23,022 bases of DNA from a virus. Positions within the stretch are counted from its first letter, which is position 1. Each line of letters opens with the position of its first letter. The position numbers and the translations under genes were made by a program. The notes beneath the pieces are model-generated. The model saw only the letters and a list, made by a program, of their open reading frames with translations. It did not search any database and was not told the DNA's origin. Below are positions 6,001-20,027 of this stretch, one piece after another. The stretch is taken from the IMG/VR virus record IMGVR_UViG_3300049224_000026, positions 1 to 23,022 of that record, one strand, 5' to 3'.

Positions 6001-6632
6001 ATTCTATATGATGGTGTGTTTCCATACTTATCTAAAACTAATGTTTGTTCTGTAACATTTACAAAAATACCTCTAACAAAATATGTTCCAGCCGCAACTG
6101 TTACTGCTGAACCTATTGCAGTTGCATCTGTTGATTGACAAGTTAATGATTCTTGTCCAGCAATAAATGAACCGACTGCACCGTTAGCTGTTAAGTTTTC
6201 ACCATTAGAAAATACAAAAGTTTCACCAGTTAAATCTGGATTTAAATATTTTACAAATAAAGTGATTGGGTCATCACCACTTGCAGCTGCAGTTCCTACA
6301 ACTTTTGCAGATACTCCAGATGTTGCACCAGTAATAACTTTATCTACATAAGATGAAATATTAGATGTAATGTCTGTGGTATTAAATGTTCCTTGAACTT
6401 TAACAGCATAATACTGTTTGTCCATTCCAACTTCACCACCAGATATAATTGCACCTTCTTTAAAGATGTTTCTACCCATTTCTTCAACTTGATTTTGAAG
6501 TATAGATTGTTGTGTGGTTAGTTCTCTAGCCTGTACTGCAAAGCCAGGTCTATATAATACTTTATGAAAATTTTTACTTGTATCAAAATCATCATAATAT
6601 GGTGATACATTTAGATTTGTTTTTTGTGCCAT
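1..6632 (-). CDS. Giant DUF4815-type virion structural protein (3' end outside window)
   Basis: The reading frame is open from the ATG at 6632 to the left edge, giving at least 2210 residues; its stop is not in the window. The N-terminus (MAQKTNLNVSPYYDDFD, then a VLYRPGFAVQARELTTQQSILQNQ-type stretch) is the hallmark of DUF4815 proteins of T4-like marine phages, which are virion structural proteins near the baseplate or fibres. The middle carries several F-GE-I-G-TSGATG modules (about residues 95, 500, 970 and 1010). The C-terminal part has two conserved blocks: MKPKTRVYPFFD, and DPLAQSFIVD followed by FQEKDERVPVTVQIR. It starts two bases after the gp8 stop (TAAGAATG), so it is probably coupled to gp8. 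Its place just after gp8 corresponds to the gp9-gp10 position in T4, but I see no clear gp10 sequence in it. The family call is firm; the exact position in the virion is inferred. Confidence 0.85.
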   Translation of the reverse strand, partial: MAQKTNLNVSPYYDDFDTSKNFHKVLYRPGFAVQARELTTQQSILQNQVEEMGRNIFKEGAIISGGEVGMDKQYYAVKVQGTFNTTDITSNISSYVDKVITGATSGVSAKVVGTAAASGDDPITLFVKYLNPDLTGETFVFSNGENLTANGAVGSFIAGQESLTCQSTDATAIGSAVTVAAGTYFVRGIFVNVTEQTLVLDKYGNTPSYRIGFTVTEDLVTPEEDSTLYDNATGTSNENAAGAHRLKISLTLSKLSLTDTNDTNFVEIMRVNLGNVLSASRNTEYAVLGETLARRTYDESGHYIVRDFKPDARETLADGINNGIFESGATTDSGNTASEDLLTLHLTPGKAYVAGYEIEKSHPTFIDIRKPRTTDNVDNAITPVEVGNTIVVENTFGSPDISPETPGSIDEPFMEVSLHDNFTASKVTGTTGGPGRGIETDSILTEDGGKIGVARVRSFDTAANNSTVTDFLSNSADNDSTFNLGLFDIKMFTEIDFSGVVTSSEFAAGAKITGANSGATGFVHSVSSDAVYLTNVNGIFSSGEKVKSSASTQSDELVHENGTTTDLTISAIESFDISQVRQVFMNDDDSNQANFSADCTMQSRFSLTGTVSLTRNTNTLVGQNTLFNTELKAGDVLEVPTGAASATEKIVIESVTNNTSATYFCIQGGAVVNTSNTTRSSGTATFTATGAFTATTGSVLSGSGSRTVVFKDHAINGYNGKATITYASNNTATYPVNSGITTPDTAGTGNSDIVLISSNVTSVGAIRTRTKINDVNKNILLRKTVKKYAKTMLTTDNNGVSQTSYTFKKQFIVTSNASGQIVITAGTNETFNALSNTNYAITILDDGSGGCNDGDIIDIDDMTSAVLAGDSKTATITDTTVFGTSSDCVVKVTATISKTTAQQKNKTNNPAHLVIVDNNGVGGGVQYGTSAHHKEISLGRTDVYKIRAIYESANASTDPLVPQFTGTVSSGTFTKGERIKGTTSGAIGSLINTGPTTFFYVLLSNKNFSDGETFTGLTSGATGTTTVVTAGDTVVTSNYVLDDGMRDSYYDISRIIRKTNVDVPIGKLLIVCDHFTHGTGDFFNVDSYSNIDYKEIPTYLATRVDTEQRQPRGRFLLHDSIDFRPTVANDDTISTVTTSSQSLSTERVNDYTFNFAQRNFSAAGSIVSNIPQDNSNFQYDLDFYVGRTDSVFLTKDKQFVVKEGLDVETEITEPPKPLSENEAMKIVDVLMQPYVKEPEQDIFLRIQKNNRFTMRDIGRLENRIERLEDYTTLNLLEAETENFQVLDANGFDRFKSGFVVDNFTGHKTGDVSHQDYSCAIDYENRTLRPKYSMKNVALIEQNEDSTARANDGYSKIGDQCMLPFTSVETVGNKFATRVESAQAAYFFAWVGVLELDPSGDEWFEVNKLPQIVINLEGNFDQILQAAGGEDALGTIWNAWETISSGVIGQTSNGWGRGGLWELVLTDQVRNGTRTFVTEVNDHKPIGNELIRQDVVPFIRSRNVTFRASKMKPKTRVYPFFDRQYIGDFCVPDGGKPGGTLTTITLPETPNWTAIGKIRFGYDNNDTAHDYVAKIMSSDSEYGFNTVGQFSLHTTINISRNSNAFYTYDFTTAAEGVVGPNIQGEKFWRIQIERAEDPIHTCAGHRLYGVEFFNADATTNIDLTQFCSVVQFQNLTNPSATIDGIVPPVGAETPGTPRDSVLQITYNLFTGTRTQTPESGTVQKLLPPGEDGNNFITGPTGSISGVFSIPDPNAPGNPAFKTGERQFRLTSSRINEADDVNLEGVETYAEGIYTARGFLNTIEETVTRTRNGQLFQEEVFESRSFQHRGRTLIQPWDPLAQSFIVDSVGGEFITKVDLYFQEKDERVPVTVQIREMRDGYPTEKLLPLASKTLESSEILLSDNATTATTFEFESPIYVADHSEYALVVKTDSRDYKLWISKLGDADIDTGTIVNDQPYLGVLFKSQNNRTWNAYQDEDIKFSLYRAKFDTSKTSNLVLTNDSVETRTLKQNSLESLASSGVVKVTHRNHHMYATTNNVAISGVSSGVSTTLNGAFGASDTSLTLTSNTGFPGSGSVRLKITVPRDSTTGDIREDEIFSGTISGSSVTSITRPTGAIAHSSGAGIELYEVDGIPLDQINRTHTSVGNVGIDSYTITTANTLATQTATATTASNATSGIKFGDSTTVVTENAMMDVMKPLVSNVEYPNTKITA

Positions 6633-6634
6633 TC

Positions 6635-8152
6635 TTAAAACTCAACTATGATTTTAACATCCTCTGTTTGGTCAGATGCTCGTGAAATAGGTCTTCTGTT
6701 TTCTATATAAATTATGTCCCCACTATCTGGGTGCATTTCTGGATTTGCATATCCACTTGAAAATGCGATACTATCAACAGTTTCAGAACCAGTTGATGAT
6801 GGAGTGCCAGATGCACTAGAGTCTGCACCAGATACTGCATTTGCACCAGAAAATAAAACTGTGTTACTTGCAGTATTAACACCATAATTTGTAAATCTTT
6901 CTTGTTGATAATATAAAATCTTATTTGTTGCATCCCATTCAACGACTCTACCGATTGCACCAGTAGTTGCTTGAGTTATTTTTTCATCTGCATCAAAATC
7001 TCCACTTGGTGAAGGAATATAAATTGCATATGTTTGTCTGGCAGTAGATGCTGTAAATAATGACGAACTGTTAAATTGAGTAGGATTTTTCATAATACCT
7101 ACTTGTCTAAAGTCGTTTGCAACAGTAATATCATTACCTTCTTCTTGTTCAAACTTTGTATTTAAAATTATATAGTGTCCACCTAATTCTTCAACTGCAT
7201 CGTGTCCGTGACCAACTTGAGGTGATATAATTGGAGTTATAGTTCCAGCACTAGCTGAATTCCAAGTTGATAAAGTACCTCCACTTATTAAAGATGTTGC
7301 ACCAGCATTTGTATAAACATTAGTTCCTGCCAAATCTACTGTTGCAAAAGTATAATTTGCACCACTAGCTTGTACTGATGATACACCAGTTTCACCAAAT
7401 CTTGTTATTACATTTGAACTCACAACAACCTTTAAGATTCCACCAGTTCCGTCTCCAGCAACTTTAACATAATAAGTTCCATCTGGATATCCACTACCTT
7501 GACTTGTTACCAAGAAAGTATCAATAGGAGCACCATTAAAAGGTGCAGAGTCTGTACTTGTTGTTACTGCACCAGATGATACAGTTGAGTCTGTTGCGAC
7601 TGCCATAAAGTCAGTTGTTAAAAATTTGTCTACTTGAGTGGTTGTCAATGTGTACATATATTGTAAATAATAACCACCAACAAATTGTTTTACTGGGGAA
7701 GTAAAAGTAGGTTCTGTTGAAAGTGCGATTTTTACTCCAGAAGAATTTAAGTTATATAAAACTTTGTAAACTCTGTAATCTGAAGTTATGAAAAAATATG
7801 TAGAATCAACAAGATTACTTGCACCAGTTTGATTTGAAGGATTAGCTGCACTAATGTTATGTTCGTACATATCGTAAGTAGTACCAGATGTATATGTTCT
7901 TCTAGGAACACCTCTTGATACATCAGAAGATGCAATCGCATTTGCACCTAACATTGAGTCCCATCTATAATTCTCTGATGTAATATCGTCTACTGGACTT
8001 GGTGGAGAAGTATCACTTCCACCAGAAGTTCCACTAGTAAAAGGAGTTGATTTTCCTACAAACATATAATAGTTTTCGTTTGTTTCAGAAAATGATTCCT
8101 CAAACTGAGCAGCATTTGTTTGTCTAAATTTTTCTGTAATAATTGCAGCCAT
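6635..8152 (-). CDS. 8: Baseplate wedge protein gp8
   Basis: This 505-residue protein is recognisable as T4 gp8, a dimeric baseplate wedge subunit joining gp6, gp7 and gp10. The N-terminus AIITEKFR with FVGKSTPF about 20 residues later parallels AIVTSKFR and FITFGRSEPW in T4 gp8. The internal RGVPRR, DFRQVGIMKNP and the C-terminal SGDIIYIENRRPI with DQTEDVKI also parallel T4 gp8 near its end. It is clearly longer than T4 gp8 (about 334 residues). The extra length includes a GSGYPDG module near residue 220, a FDADEKITQATTGAIG module near residue 380 and a Ser/Gly-rich stretch. A Shine-Dalgarno AAGGA sits 5 bases before the ATG. The gene lies between the fibre array and the giant DUF4815 gene, whereas in T4 gp8 follows gp7 directly. 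Homology is from memory of the T4 sequence, not an alignment. Confidence 0.88.
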   Translation of the reverse strand: MAAIITEKFRQTNAAQFEESFSETNENYYMFVGKSTPFTSGTSGGSDTSPPSPVDDITSENYRWDSMLGANAIASSDVSRGVPRRTYTSGTTYDMYEHNISAANPSNQTGASNLVDSTYFFITSDYRVYKVLYNLNSSGVKIALSTEPTFTSPVKQFVGGYYLQYMYTLTTTQVDKFLTTDFMAVATDSTVSSGAVTTSTDSAPFNGAPIDTFLVTSQGSGYPDGTYYVKVAGDGTGGILKVVVSSNVITRFGETGVSSVQASGANYTFATVDLAGTNVYTNAGATSLISGGTLSTWNSASAGTITPIISPQVGHGHDAVEELGGHYIILNTKFEQEEGNDITVANDFRQVGIMKNPTQFNSSSLFTASTARQTYAIYIPSPSGDFDADEKITQATTGAIGRVVEWDATNKILYYQQERFTNYGVNTASNTVLFSGANAVSGADSSASGTPSSTGSETVDSIAFSSGYANPEMHPDSGDIIYIENRRPISRASDQTEDVKIIVEF

Positions 8153-8180: not shown

Positions 8181-8474
8181 TTATGACGGTTCTGTTGGCC
8201 AAGTGACTTTATTTACTTTGTCCTCAGTATCTAATCCATTTGTTAAATCTCTTAACTCTTGTCTATAAGTTTTCCAATCAGAACTCATTGTCACATCAGA
8301 GTTTGCTCTCCAATCTGATTCACTTAATTTATTATTTCTTTCATTTCTTAAACCAGCAATCGCTCTATCGTAAGCACCTTTTGCCCACTCTACATCTCTT
8401 GCTTCAAGTTCTTTTATTTCTGAATCGGTCAAAGGTATTTTTTCACCATTAACCATTTTATGTGTGTATGCCAT
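8181..8474 (-). CDS. Small tail-fibre assembly chaperone-like protein (third copy)
   Basis: A 97-residue hydrophilic, charged protein. The second half, with LRNERNNKLSESDW, SDWKTYRQELRDL and a final VTWPTEPS, fits the Phage_tail_APC/fibre-chaperone type of short protein that follows phage fibre genes (R-x-LL-x-SDW ... W-x-YR-x-LRDL ... WP-x-P). Such proteins are thought to help fold or trimerise the fibre encoded upstream, here the one at 8506-9441. Its last 30 or so residues nearly repeat those of the protein at 11887-12255, also at the DNA level. A strong Shine-Dalgarno AGGAG stands 6 bases before the ATG. The N-terminal part (MAYTHKMVNGEKIPLTDSEI) is unlike the other copy and probably decides partner choice (inference). 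Confidence 0.7.
   Translation of the reverse strand: MAYTHKMVNGEKIPLTDSEIKELEARDVEWAKGAYDRAIAGLRNERNNKLSESDWRANSDVTMSSDWKTYRQELRDLTNGLDTEDKVNKVTWPTEPS
8189..8275 (-). repeat. Direct repeat, copy A (3' end of chaperone-like gene)
   Basis: About 87 bases that are mostly identical to 11894-11980, beginning with the same GGTTCTGTTGGCCAAGT on the plus strand. It encodes the shared C-terminus YR-x-ELRDLT ... GLDT ... WPTEPS. Confidence 0.85.
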
Positions 8475-8505: not shown

Positions 8506-9441
8506 TTAACTAATTCCATATAGTTTAATAAATCCATTAGCAAAGTTACCAGTGCTTGGATAAAATCTTAAACCATCTTGTGCTTGTGCAGTCGTTGAAC
8601 TTGCAGCTATCGTATTTGCTACTAAGTTTGTACTACCAGACCAAAGACTTTGTGACCCTATAATAGTTGTATAATCATTTGCATCGTTAGGATTAACAAT
8701 ATAAAAATATCCATTTACTGGAGTGGTTGTAGCACTTTCTTGTGAAGACCAAGTTGCAGTATTATTCATAAATCCTTGTGAATCATCTCCATAACTGCTT
8801 ATACCACTTCCGTGAGCAGAAGCACCAGTTGAATGATATCCAGAACTTAGTATACTTGCACCACTCATAAAATACACTCTTATAATCAAATCTGTACTTC
8901 TTTGTATATTATAAACACATTTATAAGAATCATATCCAGTCATTAATCCTTGAAACTGTACATCAGAAGATGATGATAATGTTGTTTTATTTAACAATGT
9001 TAAACCACCAGCAGTACCAAATTCAAATGCATTTCCAGCTTCATTAACTTTAAGTGCATCTCCAGCAGAACCTAAAGTATTAATATTAAACAATCCTACT
9101 TTATCTACAAAAGTTTCGTCAAATAATATTCTGTGATTTGCATTTGTACTAGAAACATCTGTTCCATCTAAAACTAAAAAATCACCAGCATCAGCAGTAC
9201 CATTAGTAGAATTTAAAATTATAGAGTCTGATGAAATATTATTTACTGCAGCTGATTGTAACTCATCACGAGTGACTGCATTAGAAGAAATTTCTGTTGA
9301 ACCAACTGCATCATTTGGAATTTTTGCAGAGGTAACATTATCGTTTAAAATCTTTGCAGTAGTGACAGCATCATCAGCAATTTGAGAAGTCCCAATCGTT
9401 CCAGATTGTATTGCACCTACTGGTATTTTACTTATTGGCAT
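8506..9441 (-). CDS. Tail fibre-like protein with TAKI and DGTD repeats
   Basis: A 311-residue Ser/Thr/Asn-rich protein with three parts. Residues 1-65 hold short repeats of the type DDAVTTAKI / NDNVTSAKI / NDAVGSTEI, common at the N-terminus of marine phage fibres. Residues 73-109 hold two acidic repeats ending in AGDFLVLDGTD. Residues about 145-311 form a likely beta-sandwich head ending in GNFANGFIKLYGIS. The head resembles that of the protein at 11251-11877, which ends in a similar F-x-IYG motif, so the two may be distant paralogues. No known enzymatic motif is present. The ATG directly follows the stop of the 55-residue gene (TAAATG). The probable role is a receptor-binding or decorating fibre, inferred from composition and context. 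Confidence 0.65.
   Translation of the reverse strand: MPISKIPVGAIQSGTIGTSQIADDAVTTAKILNDNVTSAKIPNDAVGSTEISSNAVTRDELQSAAVNNISSDSIILNSTNGTADAGDFLVLDGTDVSSTNANHRILFDETFVDKVGLFNINTLGSAGDALKVNEAGNAFEFGTAGGLTLLNKTTLSSSSDVQFQGLMTGYDSYKCVYNIQRSTDLIIRVYFMSGASILSSGYHSTGASAHGSGISSYGDDSQGFMNNTATWSSQESATTTPVNGYFYIVNPNDANDYTTIIGSQSLWSGSTNLVANTIAASSTTAQAQDGLRFYPSTGNFANGFIKLYGIS
9115..9225 (-). repeat. DGTD/AGD repeat pair in fibre protein
   Basis: Residues 73-109: SIILNSTNGTADAGDFLVL and LDGTDVSSTNANHRILF, matching the pair at 12983-13099 in order and length. Confidence 0.78.
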
Positions 9442-10733: not shown

Positions 10734-11251
10734 TAGTCTATCTTCCATATTCTTACATTTGCATATACTTCTACATTTACGGTATCATTTACTGCAATAC
10801 CAGCAGCAGTACCAGATTGAATGAAATGTCTTAATTGAAAAACCTTTTGAGCTGATATAGTAAATCTTCCACTTAACATACTTACACTCGTAGTATAATA
10901 ACTAGCATGAGAGTTTGATGAAAGACCTACTAAAGTATAACTTGCATCTGTTTCATTATACAAAGTTATTTTATTTCTTGCATTTACATAACCATTTGCC
11001 TCTGCTTGACAAAAATATGTTCCACTTGGTAAAGTTATTTTATGACTACTAAGAGATGCTCCTGCAATTTCATTCGTTTTTACTGTTGTTAATTCTCTTG
11101 TATTTTGTCCTGCAGAAAAAGTTTGTGCAGCAGTATTATTAGCTTTTTCATCTACTACATGCAATAGAGCTGTTTGAAATGCATTTGCATTGAAACCGTT
11201 AACTGTAATTGCACCGTTTAAGTTTAAATTGTCTACTGTTAATGTTCCCAT
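10733..11251 (-). CDS. Short fibre/adhesin with C1q/TNF-like head
   Basis: A 172-residue protein. Residues 1-20 (MGTLTVDNLNLNGAITVNG) are a variant of the MG-L-VD leader of the two fibre genes upstream. The rest has alternating beta-strands, including QTFSAGQNTRELTTVKTNEI, ITLPSGTYFCQAEANGY, RNKITLYNETD and a closing VNVEVYANVRIWKID. This looks like the compact jelly-roll (C1q/TNF-type) heads often seen on phage and bacterial surface fibres. The fold assignment is a pattern judgement. It overlaps both neighbours by one base (TAATG), so translation of the three genes is probably coupled. It may form homo- or heterotrimers with neighbouring fibres. Confidence 0.62.
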   Translation of the reverse strand: MGTLTVDNLNLNGAITVNGFNANAFQTALLHVVDEKANNTAAQTFSAGQNTRELTTVKTNEIAGASLSSHKITLPSGTYFCQAEANGYVNARNKITLYNETDASYTLVGLSSNSHASYYTTSVSMLSGRFTISAQKVFQLRHFIQSGTAAGIAVNDTVNVEVYANVRIWKID

Positions 11252-11877
11252 TATTTGGTTACTCCGTATATTGCAAAGTCGTTCATAATTATATTACCAC
11301 TTCCAAAATAAAGATGAATACCAGTTATCGCAGTTGCTCTACCTCCGAGATCTTGACCTCCATTAAAAGTACCACCTTGACTACTTGCACCATCAACAAT
11401 TGTATAATCACCTTTAACTATTGTCGGTCTAGAGGTGCTATTTACTTGTGATAAAGTACAAAAAAGATTTAAACCTTCACCAGTTGCGTTACCAGCAGTT
11501 TGATAAACCATTCTAATATGGTCAGCTGCATCGTGGTCGTAAGAATGTGTTGAACTTGAATGAACTTCTGTTTCATAAAAATAATCACTACCAGTATGAA
11601 CAGAATCACTATGTAAAAATCTCATTCTTAATGTTTGTGCATCAGTAACTGGTGTGGCATCTATAAACATTAAATAATTGTCATAAGTAGAATTTATGTA
11701 TGTACTGTTTATTTCAAATGAAGCGGCAGAAGTTGCACTACCTTGAAATAATTTAATCATACCCACACCAGCACTTCTTAACGACTCTTGAGAAAGTAAA
11801 GTTGTTGATGCAGCCCCATCTGTGATAAGTGCAGTACCATCTCTTTTTTGTATACTATCTACTTTTAAAATACCCAT
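11251..11877 (-). CDS. Short tail fibre-like protein, MG-LKVD family
   Basis: A 208-residue protein. Its N-terminus, MGILKVDSIQKRDGTALI, is nearly the same as that of the fibre at 12260-12796. Residues about 40-208 form a probable adhesin head with INSTYDNYLMFIDATP, LRMRFLHSDSVHTGSDYFYE, a His/Asp-rich loop (SSTHSYDHDAADH) and a closing GNIIMNDFAIYGV. This head type is common in marine phage tail fibres and resembles the C-terminal head of the protein at 8506-9441. The His/Asp loop could bind metal, but no fixed motif supports that. The Shine-Dalgarno AAGGA overlaps the stop codon of the upstream chaperone-like gene. The gene ends in a one-base overlap with the next fibre. Confidence 0.65.
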   Translation of the reverse strand: MGILKVDSIQKRDGTALITDGAASTTLLSQESLRSAGVGMIKLFQGSATSAASFEINSTYINSTYDNYLMFIDATPVTDAQTLRMRFLHSDSVHTGSDYFYETEVHSSSTHSYDHDAADHIRMVYQTAGNATGEGLNLFCTLSQVNSTSRPTIVKGDYTIVDGASSQGGTFNGGQDLGGRATAITGIHLYFGSGNIIMNDFAIYGVTK

Positions 11878-11886
11878 TTATTATCC

Positions 11887-12255
11887 TTAGCTTGGTTCTG
11901 TTGGCCAAGTAACTTTTTTTACTTTGTCAACAGTATCTAATCCTTTTGTTAAATCTCTCAGTTCTTCTCTATACACTTGCCATTTACCTTTAGTTGTACT
12001 ATCCATTCTAGAGTCACTTATGTCTGGCATTTGTGTCCAATCACTTTCTCTTAAAAGTCTATTTCTTATTGGTCTTATTTCATCTAATGCTTCACGAAGT
12101 TCACCCTCATCTTTTTTTGCTAATAATTCTGATTCTGTTGGTTTCGTTGTTGATTCGTCTAACCAAGTTAAATTTTTATAATCAGTTTGGTCATTACCCA
12201 CTAATTCCCATAAACAACCAGGCCAATAGTATTCTAATAATTTTGCTATATTCAT
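11887..12255 (-). CDS. Tail-fibre assembly chaperone-like protein
   Basis: A 122-residue protein. It begins MNIAKLLEYYWPGCLWELVG and continues with a substrate-like segment YKNLTWLDESTTKPTE. A helical part then carries IRPIRNRLLRESDWTQMPD, WQVYREELRDL and a final VTWPTEPS. The R-x-x-LLRESDW ... W-x-x-YR-x-x-LRDL ... WP-x-x-P pattern is that of Phage_tail_APC-type (fibre assembly chaperone) proteins. Its position right after the fibre at 12260-12796 fits. Its 3' end is a near duplicate of the 3' end of the gene at 8181-8474. It starts 4 bases after the upstream stop. The family call is reasonably firm; the client fibre is inferred. Confidence 0.72.
   Translation of the reverse strand: MNIAKLLEYYWPGCLWELVGNDQTDYKNLTWLDESTTKPTESELLAKKDEGELREALDEIRPIRNRLLRESDWTQMPDISDSRMDSTTKGKWQVYREELRDLTKGLDTVDKVKKVTWPTEPS
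11894..11980 (-). repeat. Direct repeat, copy B (3' end of chaperone-like gene)
   Basis: The partner of 8189-8275, 3705 bases away in the same direction. The sequence between the two copies spans six fibre-array genes, so recombination between them would delete or swap that block. Confidence 0.85.
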
Positions 12256-12259
12256 ATTA

Positions 12260-12796
12260 CTAACCTTTTATCTCTTGAAGAGTTACACAATTTAAAGCCA
12301 TTGTTCCATTATATTTTTCTGAACTTCTTCTTTGTACATAAATTGCTGAAGACCCTGCCATACAACCAGCTCTAATTGAATATGTTACTGCTGAGGTTGA
12401 ACTAGGTGAATCTAAAACATTAATATTACATTGGTTAGGCTGACCACCACCCATAGCATTAGTTTGGTGAACTGTTAATATACAAGTACTTCCTCTAAAA
12501 ACAGTGATACCCCAACCATTTGCGGCTGAACTTGAACCTTCAATAGAACCAGTTATTAAAATTTTACTTGAAGTAGAACTCGGTGTTATTGCTTGTGAGT
12601 AAATTTCTGTTCCTTCTGAAACTGTGGGAGTTGTATCATCATCTGGTATTGCAGAAGTAAAAGTTGCTTTTGCAACTGCAACTGTTATTTGTTGTAGAAC
12701 TATTCCTGCTCCACTAACACTTGAACTAAAAACACCATCAGTAAGAATAGCAGTTCCGTCTTCTTTTTGTAAATTATCTACTTTTAATGTACCCAT
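12260..12796 (-). CDS. Short tail fibre-like protein, MG-LKVD family
   Basis: A 178-residue protein. The leader MGTLKVDNLQKEDGTAIL is shared with the gene at 11251-11877. A beta-rich domain follows: ATFTSAIPDDDTTPTVSEG, EIYSQAITPSSTSSKILITG, a Trp/Gly strand WGITVFRGSTCILTV, and a closing ALNCVTLQEIKG. This order resembles a compact head domain often found at the end of short phage fibres, where the TP-x-x-x-x-SKI-LI motif marks the first strands (a pattern I recognise but cannot name with certainty). It contains five cysteines, more than its neighbours. The next gene is a chaperone-like protein, so the pair looks like a fibre cassette. Only a weak Shine-Dalgarno (AGGT) precedes the ATG. Confidence 0.62.
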   Translation of the reverse strand: MGTLKVDNLQKEDGTAILTDGVFSSSVSGAGIVLQQITVAVAKATFTSAIPDDDTTPTVSEGTEIYSQAITPSSTSSKILITGSIEGSSSAANGWGITVFRGSTCILTVHQTNAMGGGQPNQCNINVLDSPSSTSAVTYSIRAGCMAGSSAIYVQRRSSEKYNGTMALNCVTLQEIKG

Positions 12797-12805
12797 AAAA
12801 TCTAC

Positions 12806-13192
12806 CTAAAGTATAACAACATCTCCCTCTATTGTCAATGTATTACCAGAAGTAACCGTGATAGGCCCTACTGCCACTGCATTGACTCCTTGAGGAATTG
12901 TAAGTGTTTCATTTAAAAATTTAGTGTTTGCTCTAAACTGTGCTGATTGTCCGAAAGATTGGGGAATGGCATTTGCATCTAGGACATCATTATATTGAAC
13001 TTTATCACCAGCGTTAGCACTAGCACCATCTGTACCGTCAAGGATTAAATTATCACCAGCATTAGAACCTCCACCATCTGTTCCGTTAAGAATAATATTA
13101 ACAGATGCACCAAGACTAACTGATGCATTAATCTTAGCAGTTGTGATGGCACCGTCTGCGATACCATCAGTTGGAAGTTGAAAGACAGCCAT
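12806..13192 (-). CDS. Small fibre-like protein with two DGTD repeats
   Basis: A 128-residue protein. Residues 1-25 include DGAITTAKIN, the fibre repeat also found at 8506-9441. Residues 32-70 hold two acidic repeats of the form I-I-L-N-G-T-D then N-A-G-D-N-L-I-L-D-G-T-D and A-N-A-G-D-K. A beta-rich end follows (NETLTIPQGVNAVAVGPITV, then a hydrophobic GDVVIL terminus). It is too short for a full fibre and may be a linker or tip piece. An AGGA Shine-Dalgarno overlaps the stop (TAG) of the upstream gp10-like gene. The function is inferred only from the shared repeats and position. Confidence 0.6.
   Translation of the reverse strand: MAVFQLPTDGIADGAITTAKINASVSLGASVNIILNGTDGGGSNAGDNLILDGTDGASANAGDKVQYNDVLDANAIPQSFGQSAQFRANTKFLNETLTIPQGVNAVAVGPITVTSGNTLTIEGDVVIL
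12983..13099 (-). repeat. DGTD/AGD repeat pair in small fibre protein
   Basis: Residues 32-70: two clean units, IILNGTDGGGSNAGDNLIL and LDGTDGASANAGDKVQY, the clearest form of this repeat in the window. Confidence 0.8.
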
Positions 13193-13200
13193 AATTTATC

Positions 13201-14112
13201 CTATGATATGGTTGCACCGTTACTAGAAACTACATTCCAGTTTGCACCATTGTAAACTAAAACAACACTTTCACCGATTGCATTAAATACAATACTTGTA
13301 GAAACATTGGTAGAGTTTAAGTTACCATTTGATTGTGTCATTGTTGCATTGTTACCAGCAACAGTCATAATGATTATTTTTCTTTGACCAACAAAACGAC
13401 CAGTTGCAAGAGTAAGTCCAGCAGTACCACTAGCTGTGTTTATAAGTGATACTTCAGTATCTTTATCTAGTGCGTTAGAACCACCAGCACCAGTAATGGT
13501 TTCAGTTGATGAACCTTGAAGTGTTGATGTTTTGTTTGGTAGTGTGACTGTGACATTACCAGAATATACAGCGTGAGCTGGAGATTCTATTGCAACATAG
13601 TGTGCATTTGAACTCTCACAATATAATCTTACTTGTGATTTTGCACCACTATTTTTTACATCAATAATACCAGTTGTGAAAATGATATCATCATCACCAT
13701 TTATTTTAAAGTGAATAGTATCATCTGTGTCAGCAGTGATAGATGTATCAGCGTCTGCATCTAAAACTAATTCTTTACCATTAAGGTCAAGTTTAGTTGC
13801 AGTCATCTGAAATATATCAGCACCACCTATTTTAAAATCTATTGTATCGTCTGAATCAGCAGTTATTGAAGTATCTGCATCAACATCTAAAATAAGTTCA
13901 GAACCATTAAGGTCTAAACTTGTAGCGATTACTGGGGCTGTTAATGTAACTACGGTTGCAGTTGCACTCATCCCAGAAGTTAAAGCAGAACCAGTACCTA
14001 ATAATGTGTACAGTTCTACAAAGTTATCGTTTGCCTTGTCACCTCCAGCTCTGAGGGTATCGCCTGTCCCATCATTTGCTGAACTTCCAAGTCCGATAGA
14101 TTGATATGCCAT
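13201..14112 (-). CDS. Baseplate-anchored fibre protein with gp9/gp10-type N-terminus
   Basis: A 303-residue protein. Residues 4-38 (SIGLGSSANDGTGDTLRAGG, then DKANDNFVELYTLLG) match the N-terminal pattern of T4 gp10 (NIG-x-x-x-DDGTGD-x-LR-x-GG-x-K-x-NENF-x-ELY-x-x-LG), also seen in a related form in gp9. In T4 this region attaches the protein to the baseplate. Residues 67-108 and 109-150 are a tandem 42-residue repeat (DLNG-x-EL-x-LD-x-DADTSITAD-x-DDTI-x-FKI). The C-terminal half has strands ending in a GESVVLVYNGANWNVVSSNG pattern. It is about half the length of T4 gp10 (602 residues), so it is better seen as a gp10-N fusion to a fibre shaft than as gp10 itself. A late promoter core and AGGAG precede it. 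It opens the fibre array. Confidence 0.72.
   Translation of the reverse strand: MAYQSIGLGSSANDGTGDTLRAGGDKANDNFVELYTLLGTGSALTSGMSATATVVTLTAPVIATSLDLNGSELILDVDADTSITADSDDTIDFKIGGADIFQMTATKLDLNGKELVLDADADTSITADTDDTIHFKINGDDDIIFTTGIIDVKNSGAKSQVRLYCESSNAHYVAIESPAHAVYSGNVTVTLPNKTSTLQGSSTETITGAGGSNALDKDTEVSLINTASGTAGLTLATGRFVGQRKIIIMTVAGNNATMTQSNGNLNSTNVSTSIVFNAIGESVVLVYNGANWNVVSSNGATIS
13663..13914 (-). repeat. Tandem 126-bp coding repeat in gp10-N-type fibre
   Basis: Two in-frame copies of a 42-residue unit (residues 67-108 and 109-150) with DLNG-x-EL-x-LD, DADTSITAD and DDTI-x-FKI in the same order. They probably form repeated beta segments of a fibre shaft. Confidence 0.85.
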
Positions 14113-14149: not shown

Positions 14150-17100
14150 TTAAGTTGCAGTATTATCAAAAGTTAATCCCATATCTGATAAAGTTGCATC
14201 AAATCTAAATGCACTTGCATCAAATGTAGTTGTTATGTTTGCAGTTTGTGAAACACTAAAGTCTGCATCAAATCTTGCATAATCACCACCTAGTGTATCA
14301 TCAAATTTGTATAGTGTTTGTGAGAAGTCTAGTGGATTAGTTAATCCAGCAAAACCTACATCAAACTTGACACTATTTGAGTCAAATGTTTTATGTGTCT
14401 CAGAGAAATCTAAGAACTCTTGACCCAATGTGTCTATTGTCTTACCACCAGCATTGTCTTCATCAAATGTTTGTCTAATATCATCAAATGTTCTAAAGTC
14501 CATATCAAATGTTTGGAACATACCAGTTTTAGTAATTCTTAATTCACCTCTTGGTGGTACATTGATTCTTGTAGTAAATGCAGATGGTGCTATAAAGTTT
14601 CTACTTTCATCAAAGAACCTTGTTGTAGAATCAAAGTTCTCTTCATCAGTATCACTAAATCCACCAGTAACAGATACTTCATTTATTTTAACATCTTTAA
14701 ATTGGTCAATAGTAAAATAAGTATCAACATTTTCATCATCACCTAAAAATCCCTCTTGCATAAATCCATATTTCGCAAGGTTAACTAAAAAAGGTGCAAA
14801 TGATGATGATGTTGCACCACCCATAGTTACTGAAACAGAACTTGATAATGTAAGTTCTCTTTTACTAGATGGTAATACTGTTCCACCACCACTTGTATTT
14901 TCTTGATAACCAATAGCTGGAGTTGTATTTAAAGTTGTACCATCAGTTGCTGTACCTAACCTACGACCAAATACAGTTGTAAATAGAGTTGTAAGTGTAG
15001 ATGCAAGTTCTGGAGTGAATGTTTCAGTATCACCTACAAATCCAGAAATCTCAGAACCAGTAGGTATTTTAAGTTGTGCATTGACTAATGATGCAATAGT
15101 AACTTGTCCGAATACTGCAAACCCAGCAGGGTGTGTCGCAGTTCTAATACTATCACGCCACTCATTAATTGATTCACCTATTTTCACAACATAAGAAAAA
15201 TCTTGATAGTAATATGAATCTTGGATTCTCATAGTATCTTCAGATACAAATCCTTTTGAACCTATGAAGTTACCAGTTGTTCTACCAGTTGCACCAGTAG
15301 TTAAATCACCATCAGCTGTTAAACATTGTACAACTATTCCACTTGCAGTACCAGTTGTAATTAAATCACCCTCTTCTGGTGTATGTGTTGAATTTATTTT
15401 AATGGTTTGTTTTGCACTATCAAAGGAAACAATAGTTCCTTCTGATGATGTTAAACCTTCTGTTGCAACAAATGTTCCAACAATGTCTTTTACTAATACA
15501 GTTTTATTAAATCTTACAGAATCTCTTACTGTATCTTCATTTAAGATTGCATCACCTTCACCCTCATTTTCTAATAATATTTTTTGGCCAGATATTGCTT
15601 CACCAGTAACAGTTGCATCTTCTAATATGTGATAAACAGAATCGTTCTTATACCCAGAACCGAAGTTTCTAATACCTACTTCTGTAACACCACCAACTCC
15701 AGTATTAGATTTTGCAAGAAGTTTTGCACCAGTACCACCAGATACAGTTATAGATGGTAATTTAGTATAACCATTACCTTCATTTGTAATTCTTATTCTT
15801 CTTATCTCACCTTGTTCTTGTGACGGTAATGTTGCAGTTTCTAATTGTGTAAACTGTTCATTTTCAAATAGTAATACATCATCACTATCTGATAATTCCA
15901 TAGTGATTCTAGAAGCACCATCATTCTCTTGAACTATATTATCATTTTCGTTAGCACTATTTGTATCAGTACCATCAAGAACTATGTGGTCAACAGTTGC
16001 ATCTTGTTCTAATATCAAGAACTCTGGTTCAGATTCTTCTCTTAGTAATCTAAAGTTTCCTAATTCGTCTTCTAATATAAAATCGTTATTGTTATCTACT
16101 GGTAGTGATTGTCTAAATCTTTCAGATGAATTTGTTTCTTCACCGACTAACACACCAGTTTGTATTGCACTCGTAACAACAGAATCCTCTGTAAGTATTT
16201 TTGAATTTGCATCTGACCCAGTTGCATCTGTTCCATCAAAAATTATATTAGTGACACCATCAGAATCATTTTCTATTTGAATATGATTTGTAATGAAGTT
16301 GTCTGGGTCAACTGGTGTTTCAATAATTATATTATCACCAGCATCTGCGTGGGGGGTTGCAGTTCTATTTAAAACTATATTTACATTTTCAAAGGTTGCA
16401 TCTTCTTGTTCTATATCACCGACATCATCAACAATAATACTTTCTCTTTCATCAGTAATAATGTTATCACCAGATGTTGCGTTTTCTAATTGTATTGAAC
16501 CACCTACAATATCAACATTTGCTTCTACACCAGTACCATCTGTATCACTATTATCAAATTGAAGTTGAGCTCCATTTGTATAACCAGTACCAGTATCATC
16601 AATTATTATTTCATCTATCTTACCTTTTGATACATCTGCAACAACCATTTCTGCAAAACCATCACCACCTATTACAGTTACTGGGTCATTGATTTCATAA
16701 TACTGTCCACTTCTAGTAATATCAACACCAGAAACAATTTCTTGTATGACTGCAAAAATATCAAAATCATTATTAGGGTCTGTTCCAAAAACAGTTTCAC
16801 CAATTTGAAATGTTCCAGTAATAGAGTTATCTGCAATTCTTAATTGTGCAAACGCATTACCACCCTCTGTAAATTTAGTGACTGTCGTGATTCTTGCTGT
16901 TGCACCAGATGTTCTACCAGTTATTATTTTATTAGAAAGACTACCAAAGTCTGATGTGCCTGTTTCAATAACTTTCATAACAATTTCTGAGTCCCAGAAA
17001 CCGTCAGAAACTCTTAACATATTATCTCTTGGAAATACTATTTCAGCTTCTTCATCAAATAATAATCTAAAGAAATATTTGTGGCCATCAATAGTACCTT

Positions 17101-17689
17101 TAGAAGTATATAAATCTTTTATTGTTTTTATTAATTGTCTTTTTGATACACCACTTGCAAGTGTTTCACTAATACCTTCTAAAAATGAATCTCTAAATTG
17201 AGTTAAGAAATCATATATGGTATTATCAACATCTGCATAATCTAAAAGTTGTTGAATGTTTTGTATTGGATTACCACGAAACTGTGTAATTGTAGCTCGT
17301 GCATTAGAAGTTAAACCTTGAATCTCTTCATTGGTTTCAAATTTATTTTGTGAAGTAATATATAATACTTGATTGTCATCAAAGTCATCAATTAAAACTG
17401 TCGCAGTTGCATTAGATGTTAAACCTTTAACTGTTTCACCAACTGTAAACTTTGCAACAGAATCTTCTAATACAACATTCTCATCACCTTTCTCATTTAA
17501 AATATAATTATTAGATGTTGTTTCTTGTAATACATAATTTACTTCACCAGATATTGTAAGTTGTCCACACTCAAGATATCTATAATAATCTTTTAAAAAT
17601 TTTACAAATTTAGGGTGGTCAGATTTTAAGAACTCTGGAACGAATTCTTGCAATAAAGGTGAGATTTTTTTATCAAATGTAGAAGACAT
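14150..17689 (-). CDS. 7: Baseplate wedge protein gp7-like, with inserted repeats
   Basis: A 1179-residue protein following gp6 as gp7 does in T4. Residues 9-43 (ISPLLQEFVPEFLKSDHPKF ... YYRYLECG), residues about 187-220 (KTIKDLYTSKGTIDGHKYFF ... LFDEEAEI) and residues 852-857 (THPAGF) parallel blocks in the C-terminal third of T4 gp7. Between and around them lie modules not expected in T4 gp7: F-x-x-GE-x-x-G-x-TSNATA units at 81-136 and 255-270, GxGYT units near 361-373, 632-655 and 671-683, and an acidic DGTD-type block at about 398-620. The last 150 residues are a tail with 12 FD dipeptides. The N-terminal beta-rich part of T4 gp7 is not seen. The start overlaps the gp6 stop by one base (TAATG). 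gp7 identity is from remembered motifs plus synteny. Confidence 0.78.
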   Translation of the reverse strand: MSSTFDKKISPLLQEFVPEFLKSDHPKFVKFLKDYYRYLECGQLTISGEVNYVLQETTSNNYILNEKGDENVVLEDSVAKFTVGETVKGLTSNATATVLIDDFDDNQVLYITSQNKFETNEEIQGLTSNARATITQFRGNPIQNIQQLLDYADVDNTIYDFLTQFRDSFLEGISETLASGVSKRQLIKTIKDLYTSKGTIDGHKYFFRLLFDEEAEIVFPRDNMLRVSDGFWDSEIVMKVIETGTSDFGSLSNKIITGRTSGATARITTVTKFTEGGNAFAQLRIADNSITGTFQIGETVFGTDPNNDFDIFAVIQEIVSGVDITRSGQYYEINDPVTVIGGDGFAEMVVADVSKGKIDEIIIDDTGTGYTNGAQLQFDNSDTDGTGVEANVDIVGGSIQLENATSGDNIITDERESIIVDDVGDIEQEDATFENVNIVLNRTATPHADAGDNIIIETPVDPDNFITNHIQIENDSDGVTNIIFDGTDATGSDANSKILTEDSVVTSAIQTGVLVGEETNSSERFRQSLPVDNNNDFILEDELGNFRLLREESEPEFLILEQDATVDHIVLDGTDTNSANENDNIVQENDGASRITMELSDSDDVLLFENEQFTQLETATLPSQEQGEIRRIRITNEGNGYTKLPSITVSGGTGAKLLAKSNTGVGGVTEVGIRNFGSGYKNDSVYHILEDATVTGEAISGQKILLENEGEGDAILNEDTVRDSVRFNKTVLVKDIVGTFVATEGLTSSEGTIVSFDSAKQTIKINSTHTPEEGDLITTGTASGIVVQCLTADGDLTTGATGRTTGNFIGSKGFVSEDTMRIQDSYYYQDFSYVVKIGESINEWRDSIRTATHPAGFAVFGQVTIASLVNAQLKIPTGSEISGFVGDTETFTPELASTLTTLFTTVFGRRLGTATDGTTLNTTPAIGYQENTSGGGTVLPSSKRELTLSSSVSVTMGGATSSSFAPFLVNLAKYGFMQEGFLGDDENVDTYFTIDQFKDVKINEVSVTGGFSDTDEENFDSTTRFFDESRNFIAPSAFTTRINVPPRGELRITKTGMFQTFDMDFRTFDDIRQTFDEDNAGGKTIDTLGQEFLDFSETHKTFDSNSVKFDVGFAGLTNPLDFSQTLYKFDDTLGGDYARFDADFSVSQTANITTTFDASAFRFDATLSDMGLTFDNTAT
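14153..14605 (-). repeat. FD-rich C-terminal tail of gp7-like protein
   Basis: The last 150 residues hold 12 FD dipeptides, most preceded by T, R or K (QTFD, RTFD, KTFD, VKFD, YKFD, ARFD, TTFD, FRFD, LTFD), spaced irregularly by roughly 5-30 residues. Confidence 0.75.
15830..16498 (-). repeat. Acidic DGTD/AGD repeat block in gp7-like protein
   Basis: Residues about 398-620. Several units of the form hydrophobic-V/I-L-(D/N)-G/R-T-(D/A) followed by (N/D)-A-(G/N)-(D/S)-x-I and an acidic strand (examples NIIFDGTDATGSDANSKI and HIVLDGTDTNSANENDNI). They lie between conserved gp7-like blocks, so they look inserted. Confidence 0.7.
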
Positions 17690-19587
17690 TAGTAACCACT
17701 TGAGGAACTACTTCCAGTAGTAATATAAGATGTTGATGTATCAGCAGTTGTTACAGCAGCCGATGTTGTTGCAACAGATGAACCAGAACTTGAGGTTGCA
17801 GTGTCTACCTTTCCATTAACAGTTGAATTAGGTAAATCTATTTCTAATATATTATTTCTCAAAGGTATTATATCTGGAGATGATGGAACTGCAACTATTC
17901 TAATTTGTGTAGATGTTGCACCATCAACATTAGATATACTTGTTATTTTTGCACTAGGTATAGATACTTTACCAGCAATATAATCAACAGTACCAAAATT
18001 TGCATCTACAATAGTCTTCGTTGTACCAACAAAATAATAAGTTCTTAATGTACCATCTGTGTCATCAATGAAAAGTTCGTTATCATTACCACTTACTTTA
18101 AATCCAGTTGATGATACAACAGCTTCGTGACCACTATGAGGATTATATATTGAATTACCAAAGTTTACTGTATATGATGAATTGGTGTTAAGAGTTGGTG
18201 TGATTTTTTTAGACATTTGAATAGTAGTTACATTTGAAGTTATTGCACTATCAGTATCATCTATTTGTCCAATCAAATCTGAAAATCTAAATTGTGAATT
18301 AAATTGTTCTAAAGTATTTGCACTATAAGTTGTAAGTGTTGTTACAATTAATGCATTTAAATCATTAACTGTTTTTGTAGTAATTGTAGAATTATACTTA
18401 TAATTCGTAGTCAATCTAATCTGAATAGTTTCTGGGTCAACTATTTCTGTTCTAATAGATGCAACATTATATGGTTTTAAAGAATTTTGTATTGTAGACT
18501 TTTGAGAATTAGTTAATGTGTTTCCATCATTTGTTTTAATAGAGATATAAACTATTCCATATTTTGGTGGGTCATTATCTTCACCACCCCAAACTGAAAC
18601 AGCTGCAGTATCTGGAAATACTTGTCTTACAAATACTTTGTAATCATTTACTGTGACTGCTCTATTTTGTGCAGAGTAATCTAAAGGTGCATTAAATTTA
18701 ATACTATCAATAGTTTCTCTTGTTGCACCACCAGTGGCTGCAGATGTTGTCGTAACAGTATATGCAGTAGAACCAGAAATTTGTGAAGAACCAGTAAGAC
18801 TGCCTGCACCATTAGCTAAAGTTTCGTTAGTAACAATATATTCTAAAACAACTATATTACCATCAGTTAATTTTTTACCTATTACACCATCACCAAATAA
18901 TATTTCGTGTTGTCCATCTTCAACCTCTTGTATAAAAAATACATTAGATGTAGATGTTGCTTGAACTATGTCAGCAGATTCTGTATATGTTTGAGTAGTT
19001 GAATCGGTTGAAGAGTTTTGTACAGTAACTTTAAGAGTTGACATATCTGCTTTTGTATCTGCAATTATAAATCTTTGGTCAATGTTATCTGCATCAACAG
19101 TATATCTTGTTGTGATTAATGTTCCCTCAAATACTTCTAATCCTTCAAATCTTAATACATTATTTTCTCTTGATTTAGTAACTGCTTCATTTGTAATAAA
19201 AAAATAAGGAACATTATCAATAGATGATTGAAAAGAAAAACCTTTTGGTATTGTTGCAGTTGTTATGCCAGTAATTGCACTAACCTCTACATTAACTATT
19301 GCTTTAGGTGCTCGTGAACTTCTTACTTTATAACCTAATAGTTTTGCGTGTGATACGACTGAAGAACGAAGTTGTGCAGTATCAAGAAACATCTCATTAC
19401 CCATAAGGTTTGCGTTCATAGCTTGATAGTGCGTGTTGTATGCAAGAACATCTAATAAGACATTCATACCAGAACCTTCAAAGTCGTAGTCTGTAAATTC
19501 TGTTTGATTTTTTAGGAATGTTTTTAAATTACTTTTGATACCATCAAAATCTAATTCTGTAATTCTTAATCTTTCTTTATTTGCCAT
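17689..19587 (-). CDS. 6: Baseplate wedge protein gp6 (baseplate-J type)
   Basis: A 632-residue protein, close to T4 gp6 (about 660). The N-terminus RITELDFDGIKSNLKTFLKN, with DFEGSGMNVLLDVLAYNTHY and the following MFLDTAQLRSSVV, is the typical gp6/baseplate-J opening. The central part (residues about 290-400: APLDYSAQNRAVTVNDYKVF ... VWGGEDNDPPKYG) is the conserved J-like region. The C-terminus is a Ser/Thr-rich tail of about 35 residues. In the contractile baseplate, gp6 dimers form the iris that holds the wedges together with gp7 and gp25. It overlaps gp25 upstream and the gp7-like gene downstream by one base each, so the three wedge proteins are made from one coupled unit. Confidence 0.93.
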   Translation of the reverse strand: MANKERLRITELDFDGIKSNLKTFLKNQTEFTDYDFEGSGMNVLLDVLAYNTHYQAMNANLMGNEMFLDTAQLRSSVVSHAKLLGYKVRSSRAPKAIVNVEVSAITGITTATIPKGFSFQSSIDNVPYFFITNEAVTKSRENNVLRFEGLEVFEGTLITTRYTVDADNIDQRFIIADTKADMSTLKVTVQNSSTDSTTQTYTESADIVQATSTSNVFFIQEVEDGQHEILFGDGVIGKKLTDGNIVVLEYIVTNETLANGAGSLTGSSQISGSTAYTVTTTSAATGGATRETIDSIKFNAPLDYSAQNRAVTVNDYKVFVRQVFPDTAAVSVWGGEDNDPPKYGIVYISIKTNDGNTLTNSQKSTIQNSLKPYNVASIRTEIVDPETIQIRLTTNYKYNSTITTKTVNDLNALIVTTLTTYSANTLEQFNSQFRFSDLIGQIDDTDSAITSNVTTIQMSKKITPTLNTNSSYTVNFGNSIYNPHSGHEAVVSSTGFKVSGNDNELFIDDTDGTLRTYYFVGTTKTIVDANFGTVDYIAGKVSIPSAKITSISNVDGATSTQIRIVAVPSSPDIIPLRNNILEIDLPNSTVNGKVDTATSSSGSSVATTSAAVTTADTSTSYITTGSSSSSGY

Positions 19588-20027
19588 TATCTTATTCTCT
19601 CTAGTATAAACTCAAATGATATTAGTTCAGTTGTTGCATTAATAATAAAAAAGTCTAATCTAATATTATAAGCATTTCTGTCTATGTCTGGTGTGCAATC
19701 AACTCTATGTAATAAAATTCTTGGTTCGTGTGTTTCTAAAACATTAGTGATGTTGTGAGTTAATACTCCAGCAGTTAATGTGTTTAAAGGTTCAAATAAA
19801 GATTGTCTGATATTAGAACCTATCTCTGGGTGAAAAGGTTTTTCATAATGATTTAATGATATAAGATTTCTAACACTTCTTTTGATTGCCTCTACATCTG
19901 TAACTTTAGTAATATCTTTAGTAACTGGATTCTGATTAAAGTTTAAACTCAAATCCTTAAAGATACGGTTACTTCGTCTCTCGTTATTTATTTGTGCATC
20001 AAATAATAAATTTCCAGTTAATGACAT
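19587..20027 (-). CDS. 25: Baseplate wedge / sheath-initiator protein gp25
   Basis: A 146-residue protein of the GPW/gp25 family (T4 gp25 is about 132). Visible hallmarks are RIFKDLSLNF, the VEAIKRSVRNLISLNHYEKP helix-turn, FHPEIGSNIRQSLFEPL, and the ETHEPRI element with the family's central E-P-R motif. The typical beta end follows (NAYNIRLDFFIIN). gp25 binds gp6 in the wedge and starts sheath polymerisation around the tube. It lies between PAAR and gp6, coupled to both by TAATG overlaps. In T4 gene 25 is in a different place relative to 5-6, so this is the marine-phage-style arrangement. Confidence 0.93.
   Translation of the reverse strand: MSLTGNLLFDAQINNERRSNRIFKDLSLNFNQNPVTKDITKVTDVEAIKRSVRNLISLNHYEKPFHPEIGSNIRQSLFEPLNTLTAGVLTHNITNVLETHEPRILLHRVDCTPDIDRNAYNIRLDFFIINATTELISFEFILERIR

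Follow-up and report, generated by a model that had tools for sequence, protein, structure and literature searches.

A gp7-type baseplate wedge protein with a core-first build, two filled insertion sites and a long tail in a marine T4-like phage

Positions 1 to 23,022 of the IMG/VR virus record IMGVR_UViG_3300049224_000026, a 23,022-nucleotide stretch referred to here as the window, belong to a marine T4-like myovirus of the Kyanoviridae type. An open reading frame (ORF) on its minus strand (14150-17689; ATG at 17689, stop at 14150; 1179 residues) almost certainly encodes an orthologue of the T4 baseplate wedge protein gp7 that keeps the wedge-core role. The fuller reading, which we consider likely, is that a conserved core, confined in T4 to the C-terminal third, has been lengthened at two internal sites and by a C-terminal tail, and that the added parts face outwards and dock other baseplate components. 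The closest cultured homologue is that of Methylophilales phage Melnitz (41% amino acid identity over 82%), and the pelagiphages Mosig and HTVC008M stand next to it among the nearest cultured relatives. The protein is divided as follows.

14150-17689, minus strand: gp7-type baseplate wedge protein, whole ORF (PF23786, PHROG wedge families, T4 gp7 profile matches, Foldseek).
17558-17671, minus strand: core helix H1, residues 7-44, corresponding to T4 gp7 about 641-679 (Pfam Gp7_helical; BLASTP, hhalign and hidden Markov model, HMM).
17273-17557, minus strand: insert 1, residues 45-139, of which 68-139 form a GETxTG beta-module related to gp7 domain V (length survey, hhalign, tree).
16973-17272, minus strand: core helices H2, residues 140-239, corresponding to T4 gp7 681-769 (HMM free of T4 sequences, E 2e-16; TIGR02242 weak).
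16742-16972, minus strand: beta module at the domain V position, residues 240-316, collinear with T4 about 770-848 (hhalign, residues 184-325 with T4 725-848, E 3.5e-10; predicted local distance difference test, pLDDT, 80-90).
16475-16741, minus strand: insert 2, first beta module YG1, residues 317-405 (related to YG2, E 1.2e-4; pLDDT above 80).
15833-16474, minus strand: insert 2, low-complexity repeats of DGTD/LED type, residues 406-619, predicted disordered (pLDDT mostly below 50; poorly occupied in homologues).
15620-15832, minus strand: insert 2, second beta module YG2, residues 620-690 (hhalign, AlphaFold2 models).
15272-15517, minus strand: insert 2, module C, residues 725-806, related to the insert 1 module (hhalign E 1.4e-10 against insert 1, 1.7e-4 against the domain V module).
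15089-15271, minus strand: C-terminal core, residues 807-867 (QDSYYYQDFSYVVKIGESINEWRDSIRTATHPAGFAVFGQV), corresponding to T4 about 860-893 (hhalign E 3.6e-6; 3.8e-5 in the whole-protein run).
14153-15088, minus strand: C-terminal tail, residues 868-1179, largely disordered, with FTTVFGRRLGT at about 903-913 and an FD-rich end at 1010-1179 (conservation, shuffles, AlphaFold2; no match to T4 domain VI).

The identity of the protein is carried by motifs, profiles and structure matches. It scores 43.3 bits against PF23786 (Baseplate_wedge) and so passes the curated cut-off of 27; this model of 284 positions spans the gp7 core and includes neither inserts nor tail. PHROG wedge families are matched as well. 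The core motifs PLLQEFVPEF (residues 11-20), LYTSKGTIDGHKYFFRLLFDEEAEI (193-217) and HPAGF (853-857) lie in three regions collinear with T4 gp7 641-679, 681-769 and about 860-893, and BLASTP against T4 gp7 returns three collinear segments, all C-terminal in T4. A sequence-only reading had assigned its recognisable gp7 blocks to the C-terminal third of the T4 protein, with the first of them near the start of the ORF, and both assignments hold. The profile alignment that it proposed as a check is significant: hhalign gives E 3.5e-10 with the window protein as master and 6e-13 with a minimal homologue as master, the matches being limited to T4 residues 640-893 and the core being about 20% identical. 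An HMM of residues 139-240, trained with no T4-clade sequence, finds T4 gp7 681-769 at E 2e-16.

Structural databases point the same way. Among 177,635 PDB sequences, the top two matches of a profile with the shortest and least inserted relatives at its head are T4-type gp7 (E 7.6e-7 and 1.2e-5), covering chain residues 645-830 and 862-905. This was the only profile to reach T4 gp7 there; a single-sequence phmmer search of PDB with the ORF and a profile of marine sequences only both returned nothing. In a Foldseek search of PDB with the AlphaFold2 model, the only matches below E 0.001 are 9f4a_A0 (7.5e-6) and 5iv5_BJ (9.6e-5), both T4-type gp7, and the third match is T4 gp7 again. TIGR02242 matches residues 144-224 weakly (E 7e-4; 19.7 bits, below the cut-off of 51.85), and sub-threshold matches occur in 5 of 10 family members. 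As they fall in the same region, they suggest at sequence level a distant relation at most to minimal gp7 proteins such as P2 gpI.

According to a survey published in 2020, pelagi- and cyanomyophages lack gp7 and carry VrlC as its substitute (PMC7029224). If gp7 were truly missing and VrlC, a DUF4815 protein, stood in its place, the ORF would be some other structural protein, for instance the head closure protein Hc2, whose label is carried both by the HTVC008M homologue and by the best PHROG match. This is so improbable as to be nearly negligible, given that the core is homologous to T4 gp7 in sequence and structure, that the ORF adjoins gp6, and that the DUF4815 protein is encoded by a separate, coexisting gene. 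The survey's conclusion is contradicted, since a gp7 core and VrlC are both present and separate. VrlC was also considered as a replacement of gp7 or as a carrier of its N-terminus and was rejected, having no T4 gp7 similarity (E>0.4). The label "head closure Hc2" (RefSeq HTVC008M gp055, L002:9998-13048; PHROG_3465) was likewise rejected in favour of a gp7 orthologue. Core-only proteins have already been called gp7 in PF23786, in several PHROGs, in the gp7 entry of the DLP6 paper and in the phiM12 and OC records. The annotation of many relatives reads hypothetical, head closure Hc2 or YHYH domain protein.

The sequence-only reading had further stated that the T4 N-terminal region seems absent, which the searches bear out. 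A profile of T4 gp7 residues 1-635 had no match in the whole protein family (E 0.7-0.9), and among the six-frame ORFs of the window and of the loci then fetched it found nothing besides T4-clade gp7. At E<=1 the T4 N-terminal profile detected 2 of 2 positive controls and none of the 13 related phages outside the T4 clade whose complete genomes were searched, whereas the gp7 core profile detected all 15. In tblastn searches of phage records at E<=0.1, T4 residues 1-640 gave 1431 matches and whole T4 gp7 gave 1432, with identical leading organism names. The ORF conceals no N-terminal extension, since its stop-to-stop frame of 1185 codons reaches only 6 codons further upstream. The profile of T4 residues 1-635 aligned nowhere within residues 230-850. 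Residues 317-805 folded alone had no PDB match below E 0.2 (the top structure match was the Mu baseplate, 9ki1_R, at E 0.2), and T4-type gp7 reached this isolated model only at E 2.2 over 83 columns. T4 domain VI (920-1012) was not found in the tail either (hhalign E 0.43, no PF21456 match).

It might still be argued that the T4 N-terminal domains are there and too diverged to be detected, inside insert 2, in the tail or in a separate gene. Insert 2 and the tail offer room for them, at about 800 residues together, and even the recognised core is just about 20% identical to T4. We hold this to be highly improbable. Beyond the negative searches, the content of the inserts is explained by two repeated beta-modules and disorder, and the smallest homologues (523-631 residues) are too short to hold 640 more. 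The core-first build is retained, and the 640-residue N-terminus of T4 gp7 is read as a probable gain in that lineage, and not as a loss elsewhere, because all other branches as well as P2, XM1 and TssG are core-only.

Length is added at two places within the core, residues 45-139 (insert 1, 95 residues here) and 317-806 (insert 2), and at the C-terminus. As the sequence-only reading supposed, repeats contribute to it: they comprise two beta-module families and a DGTD-type stretch at about 400-620. Profiles of single segments relate the insert 1 module to the domain-V-position module at E 8.6e-10 and to module C at E 1.4e-10, while YG1 and YG2 (E 1.2e-4) form a second, duplicated family. An iterated domain V HMM, which grew from 264 to 883 matches, could drift, and the claim of module kinship therefore relies on independent segment profiles with controls (reversed profiles and 100 column shuffles per pair), the best of which reached E 0.0036. 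The idea of inserted modules needs amending accordingly: they are present, at two sites, and by profile comparison some are kin to the protein's own domain-V-position module and not foreign. Neither the two insertion sites nor such copying is described in the literature searched.

Modules of the same kind recur elsewhere in the window. HMMs of insert 1 and of module C find the DUF4815 protein (residues 966-1030, E 4e-8) and gp8 (374-467, E 6e-5) as well, and the occurrence of the GETxTG module in gp7 inserts, VrlC and gp8 suggests an exchange of modules between wedge proteins. The DUF4815/VrlC protein also has a GETxTG beta-module at residues 500-560. Within the DGTD-type stretch, the repeat ILDGTDxxSxNAGDxI occupies residues 569-592 (window 15914-15985) and is shared with HTVC008M gp7. 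The same repeat is seen in at least two further structural ORFs of the window, at 9106-9177 (ORF 8506-9441) and 12977-13096 (ORF 12806-13192).

In the AlphaFold2 model most modules have a pLDDT of 70-90, and in a model of residues 317-805 alone YG1, YG2 and module C reach about 85-95. Residues 397-625 and 1056-1179 fall below 50, which makes disorder probable for the DGTD-type stretch and for the FD tail. The FD-rich character of the tail noted from the sequence is borne out: the last 170 residues contain 12 FD dipeptides, as many as in none of 20,000 shuffles. The FGRRLGT helix motif of the tail is near-invariant in homologues. The gp7 of phage DLP6 (L046:7983-11849) has a 775-residue tail that ends in TxFxTxRxT-type repeats, unlike the FD tail.

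The build is not special to this phage. Among 223 complete homologous ORFs, drawn from fetched loci that are mostly from IMG/VR and in part overlap, the core starts by residue 31 in every case, 13 named T4-like phages outside the T4 clade included. The core-only build is thus normal for T4-like phages outside the T4 clade. When homologues are anchored on the core, the same core pieces, two variable positions and a tail are found throughout, and total length ranges from 523 to 3274 residues. Cyano-, pelagi- and Melnitz-type phages carry an insert 1 of 94-110 residues, against 0-4 in Rhizobium RHph, Caulobacter Cr30, Pseudomonas pf16, phiM12, OC, DLP6, BUCT-ZZ01 and a Desulfovibrio phage. The stretch from H2 to the C-terminal core, domain V module included, spans 77 residues in OC, 564 here and about 1565 in S-PM2 and Syn1, and the tail runs from 16 residues in RHph through 312 here to more than 1000 in cyanophages. 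In a phylogeny of 222 concatenated core columns, all 32 carriers of insert 1 fall into one clade (support 0.77), consistent with a single gain. Two cyanophage orthologues (L005:13054-22878 and L006:13159-22305) exceed 3000 residues by way of the second insertion position and the tail.

T4 gp7 (1032 residues; PDB 5IV5, 5HX2) and its Straboviridae relatives share with the window protein the place after gp6 and a collinear helical core, domain V position and HPxGF core (T4 641-905). The window protein differs from them in lacking T4 residues 1-640 (the fibronectin type III-like and following domains) and domain VI, in having both insertion sites filled, and in its different, disordered tail. The gp7-type proteins outside the T4 clade (Melnitz_161, HTVC008M gp055, Mosig_00105, Syn1_094, S-PM2p084, phiM12 gp105, DLP6 AAY80_265, OC p050 and RHph EVB91_234) have the core from residue 2-31 and the two identical insertion sites. 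Insert 1 is common to the cyano/pelagi/Melnitz clade, the sizes of insert 2 and tail differ, and it is mainly close IMG/VR relatives that also have the DGTD stretch and the long FD tail. The minimal equivalents XM1 gp17, P2 gpI and TssG of the type VI secretion system (T6SS) are also core-only; the window protein exceeds XM1 gp17 in length about fivefold, and this kinship rests on the literature together with the weak TIGR02242 matches.

In T4, T6SS and XM1, a conserved (gp6)2-gp7 unit or its equivalent combines a three-helix bundle with a trifurcation domain, and these tie the periphery to the sheath initiator (PMC6300606; PMC10457771). The part retained in the window protein is this wedge unit, and gp6 is kept as well (PDB E 3e-48). 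By analogy with the T4, XM1 and TssFG structures, the gp7 core would bind two gp6 chains through the three-helix core bundle and the trifurcation unit, and would relay a firing signal received at the periphery to gp25 and the sheath. The inserts and tail would face outwards and take over the role that the N-terminal domains of gp7 have there in T4, where gp7 domains contact gp9, gp10 and gp8 (PMC3004832). Fibres, gp8, the gp9/gp10-type connector and the DUF4815 protein may dock on them. The outer wedge would be differently built, as the sequence-only reading proposed. XM1 gp17, a gp7 orthologue of 242 residues, holds twelve tail spikes through a core-domain loop (80-106) and its C-terminus (PMC10457771), and because of this analogy insert 2 and the tail would be the likeliest docking surfaces for the connector encoded downstream and for further proteins of the periphery. 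Peripheral docking by inserts or tail is, in our judgement, somewhat favoured.

Several observations weigh against this picture. The isolated domain-V-position module matches T4 domain V (766-861) weakly (hhalign E 0.019), although it is collinear within the E 3.5e-10 alignment. The AlphaFold2 model has a mean pLDDT of 56, and the core helices, which would pack on gp6, are also low. The predicted disorder of residues 406-619 and 1056-1179 means that these parts could be mere spacers. The core may then be as described while inserts and tail are padding that widens the wedge and docks nothing in particular, as the range of the second variable stretch (77-1565 residues) and the 16-residue tail of some relatives would also allow. 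Such a purely spacing function is possible but rather doubtful: throughout the clade insert 1, YG1, YG2 and module C are conserved and receive confident structure predictions, the FGRRLGT helix motif is near-invariant, and both variable regions of the XM1 orthologue hold tail spikes. A bolder scheme is less likely than not. The outer baseplate of cyano-, pelagi- and Melnitz-type phages might have been rebuilt by copying one small beta-module of the gp7 core (three times in gp7, again in gp8 and VrlC) into a second outer layer that replaces both the T4 gp7 N-terminus and gp10/gp11, with the disordered FD tail as a flexible adhesin tether.

The neighbouring genes are those of a T4-like baseplate. 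On the minus strand their order is gp5-PAAR-gp25-gp6-gp7-connector-fibres-gp8-DUF4815, and the gp6 stop codon overlaps the start of the gp7-type ORF (TAATG). The order gp25-gp6-gp7 recurs in the fetched loci L001, L002, L003, L005, L006, L007 and L008.

19587-20027, minus strand: gp25 (GPW_gp25, E 3e-11).
17689-19587, minus strand: gp6, predicted wedge partner of gp7 (PDB match to T4-type gp6, E 3e-48; PHROG_219, E 4e-184).
13201-14112, minus strand: connector with a T4 gp9/gp10-type N-terminus, next downstream of gp7 and a candidate partner of its inserts or tail (PF07880, E 1.7e-6; phrog_677, E 1e-17).
6635-8152, minus strand: gp8, with one GETxTG-type module at residues 374-467 (Phage-Gp8; module C HMM, E 6e-5).
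3-6632, minus strand: giant DUF4815/"VrlC" protein, cut by the window end, with GETxTG modules (domain match; no T4 gp7 similarity).

The fibre island holds two paralogous ORFs resembling tail fibre assembly proteins (8181-8474 and 11887-12255; 51% identity over 73 residues), each adjoining fibre-like ORFs; they are a duplicated chaperone of the island. The ORF at 12260-12796 encodes a short fibre-like protein with a match to the Chlamydia Pgp3 C-terminal domain (PF05475, E 2e-6), and its first 27 residues resemble those of ORF 11251-11877 (59%).

These results correct misleading labels, such as head closure Hc2 and hypothetical protein, for a protein that exceeds 3000 residues in cyanophages. 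They also set a conserved core for baseplate firing apart from an exchangeable periphery and give exact insertion points for the interpretation of cryo-electron microscopy maps. gp7 is not missing from abundant marine T4-like phages: its core is present in every genome tested, and it is the outward part that varies.

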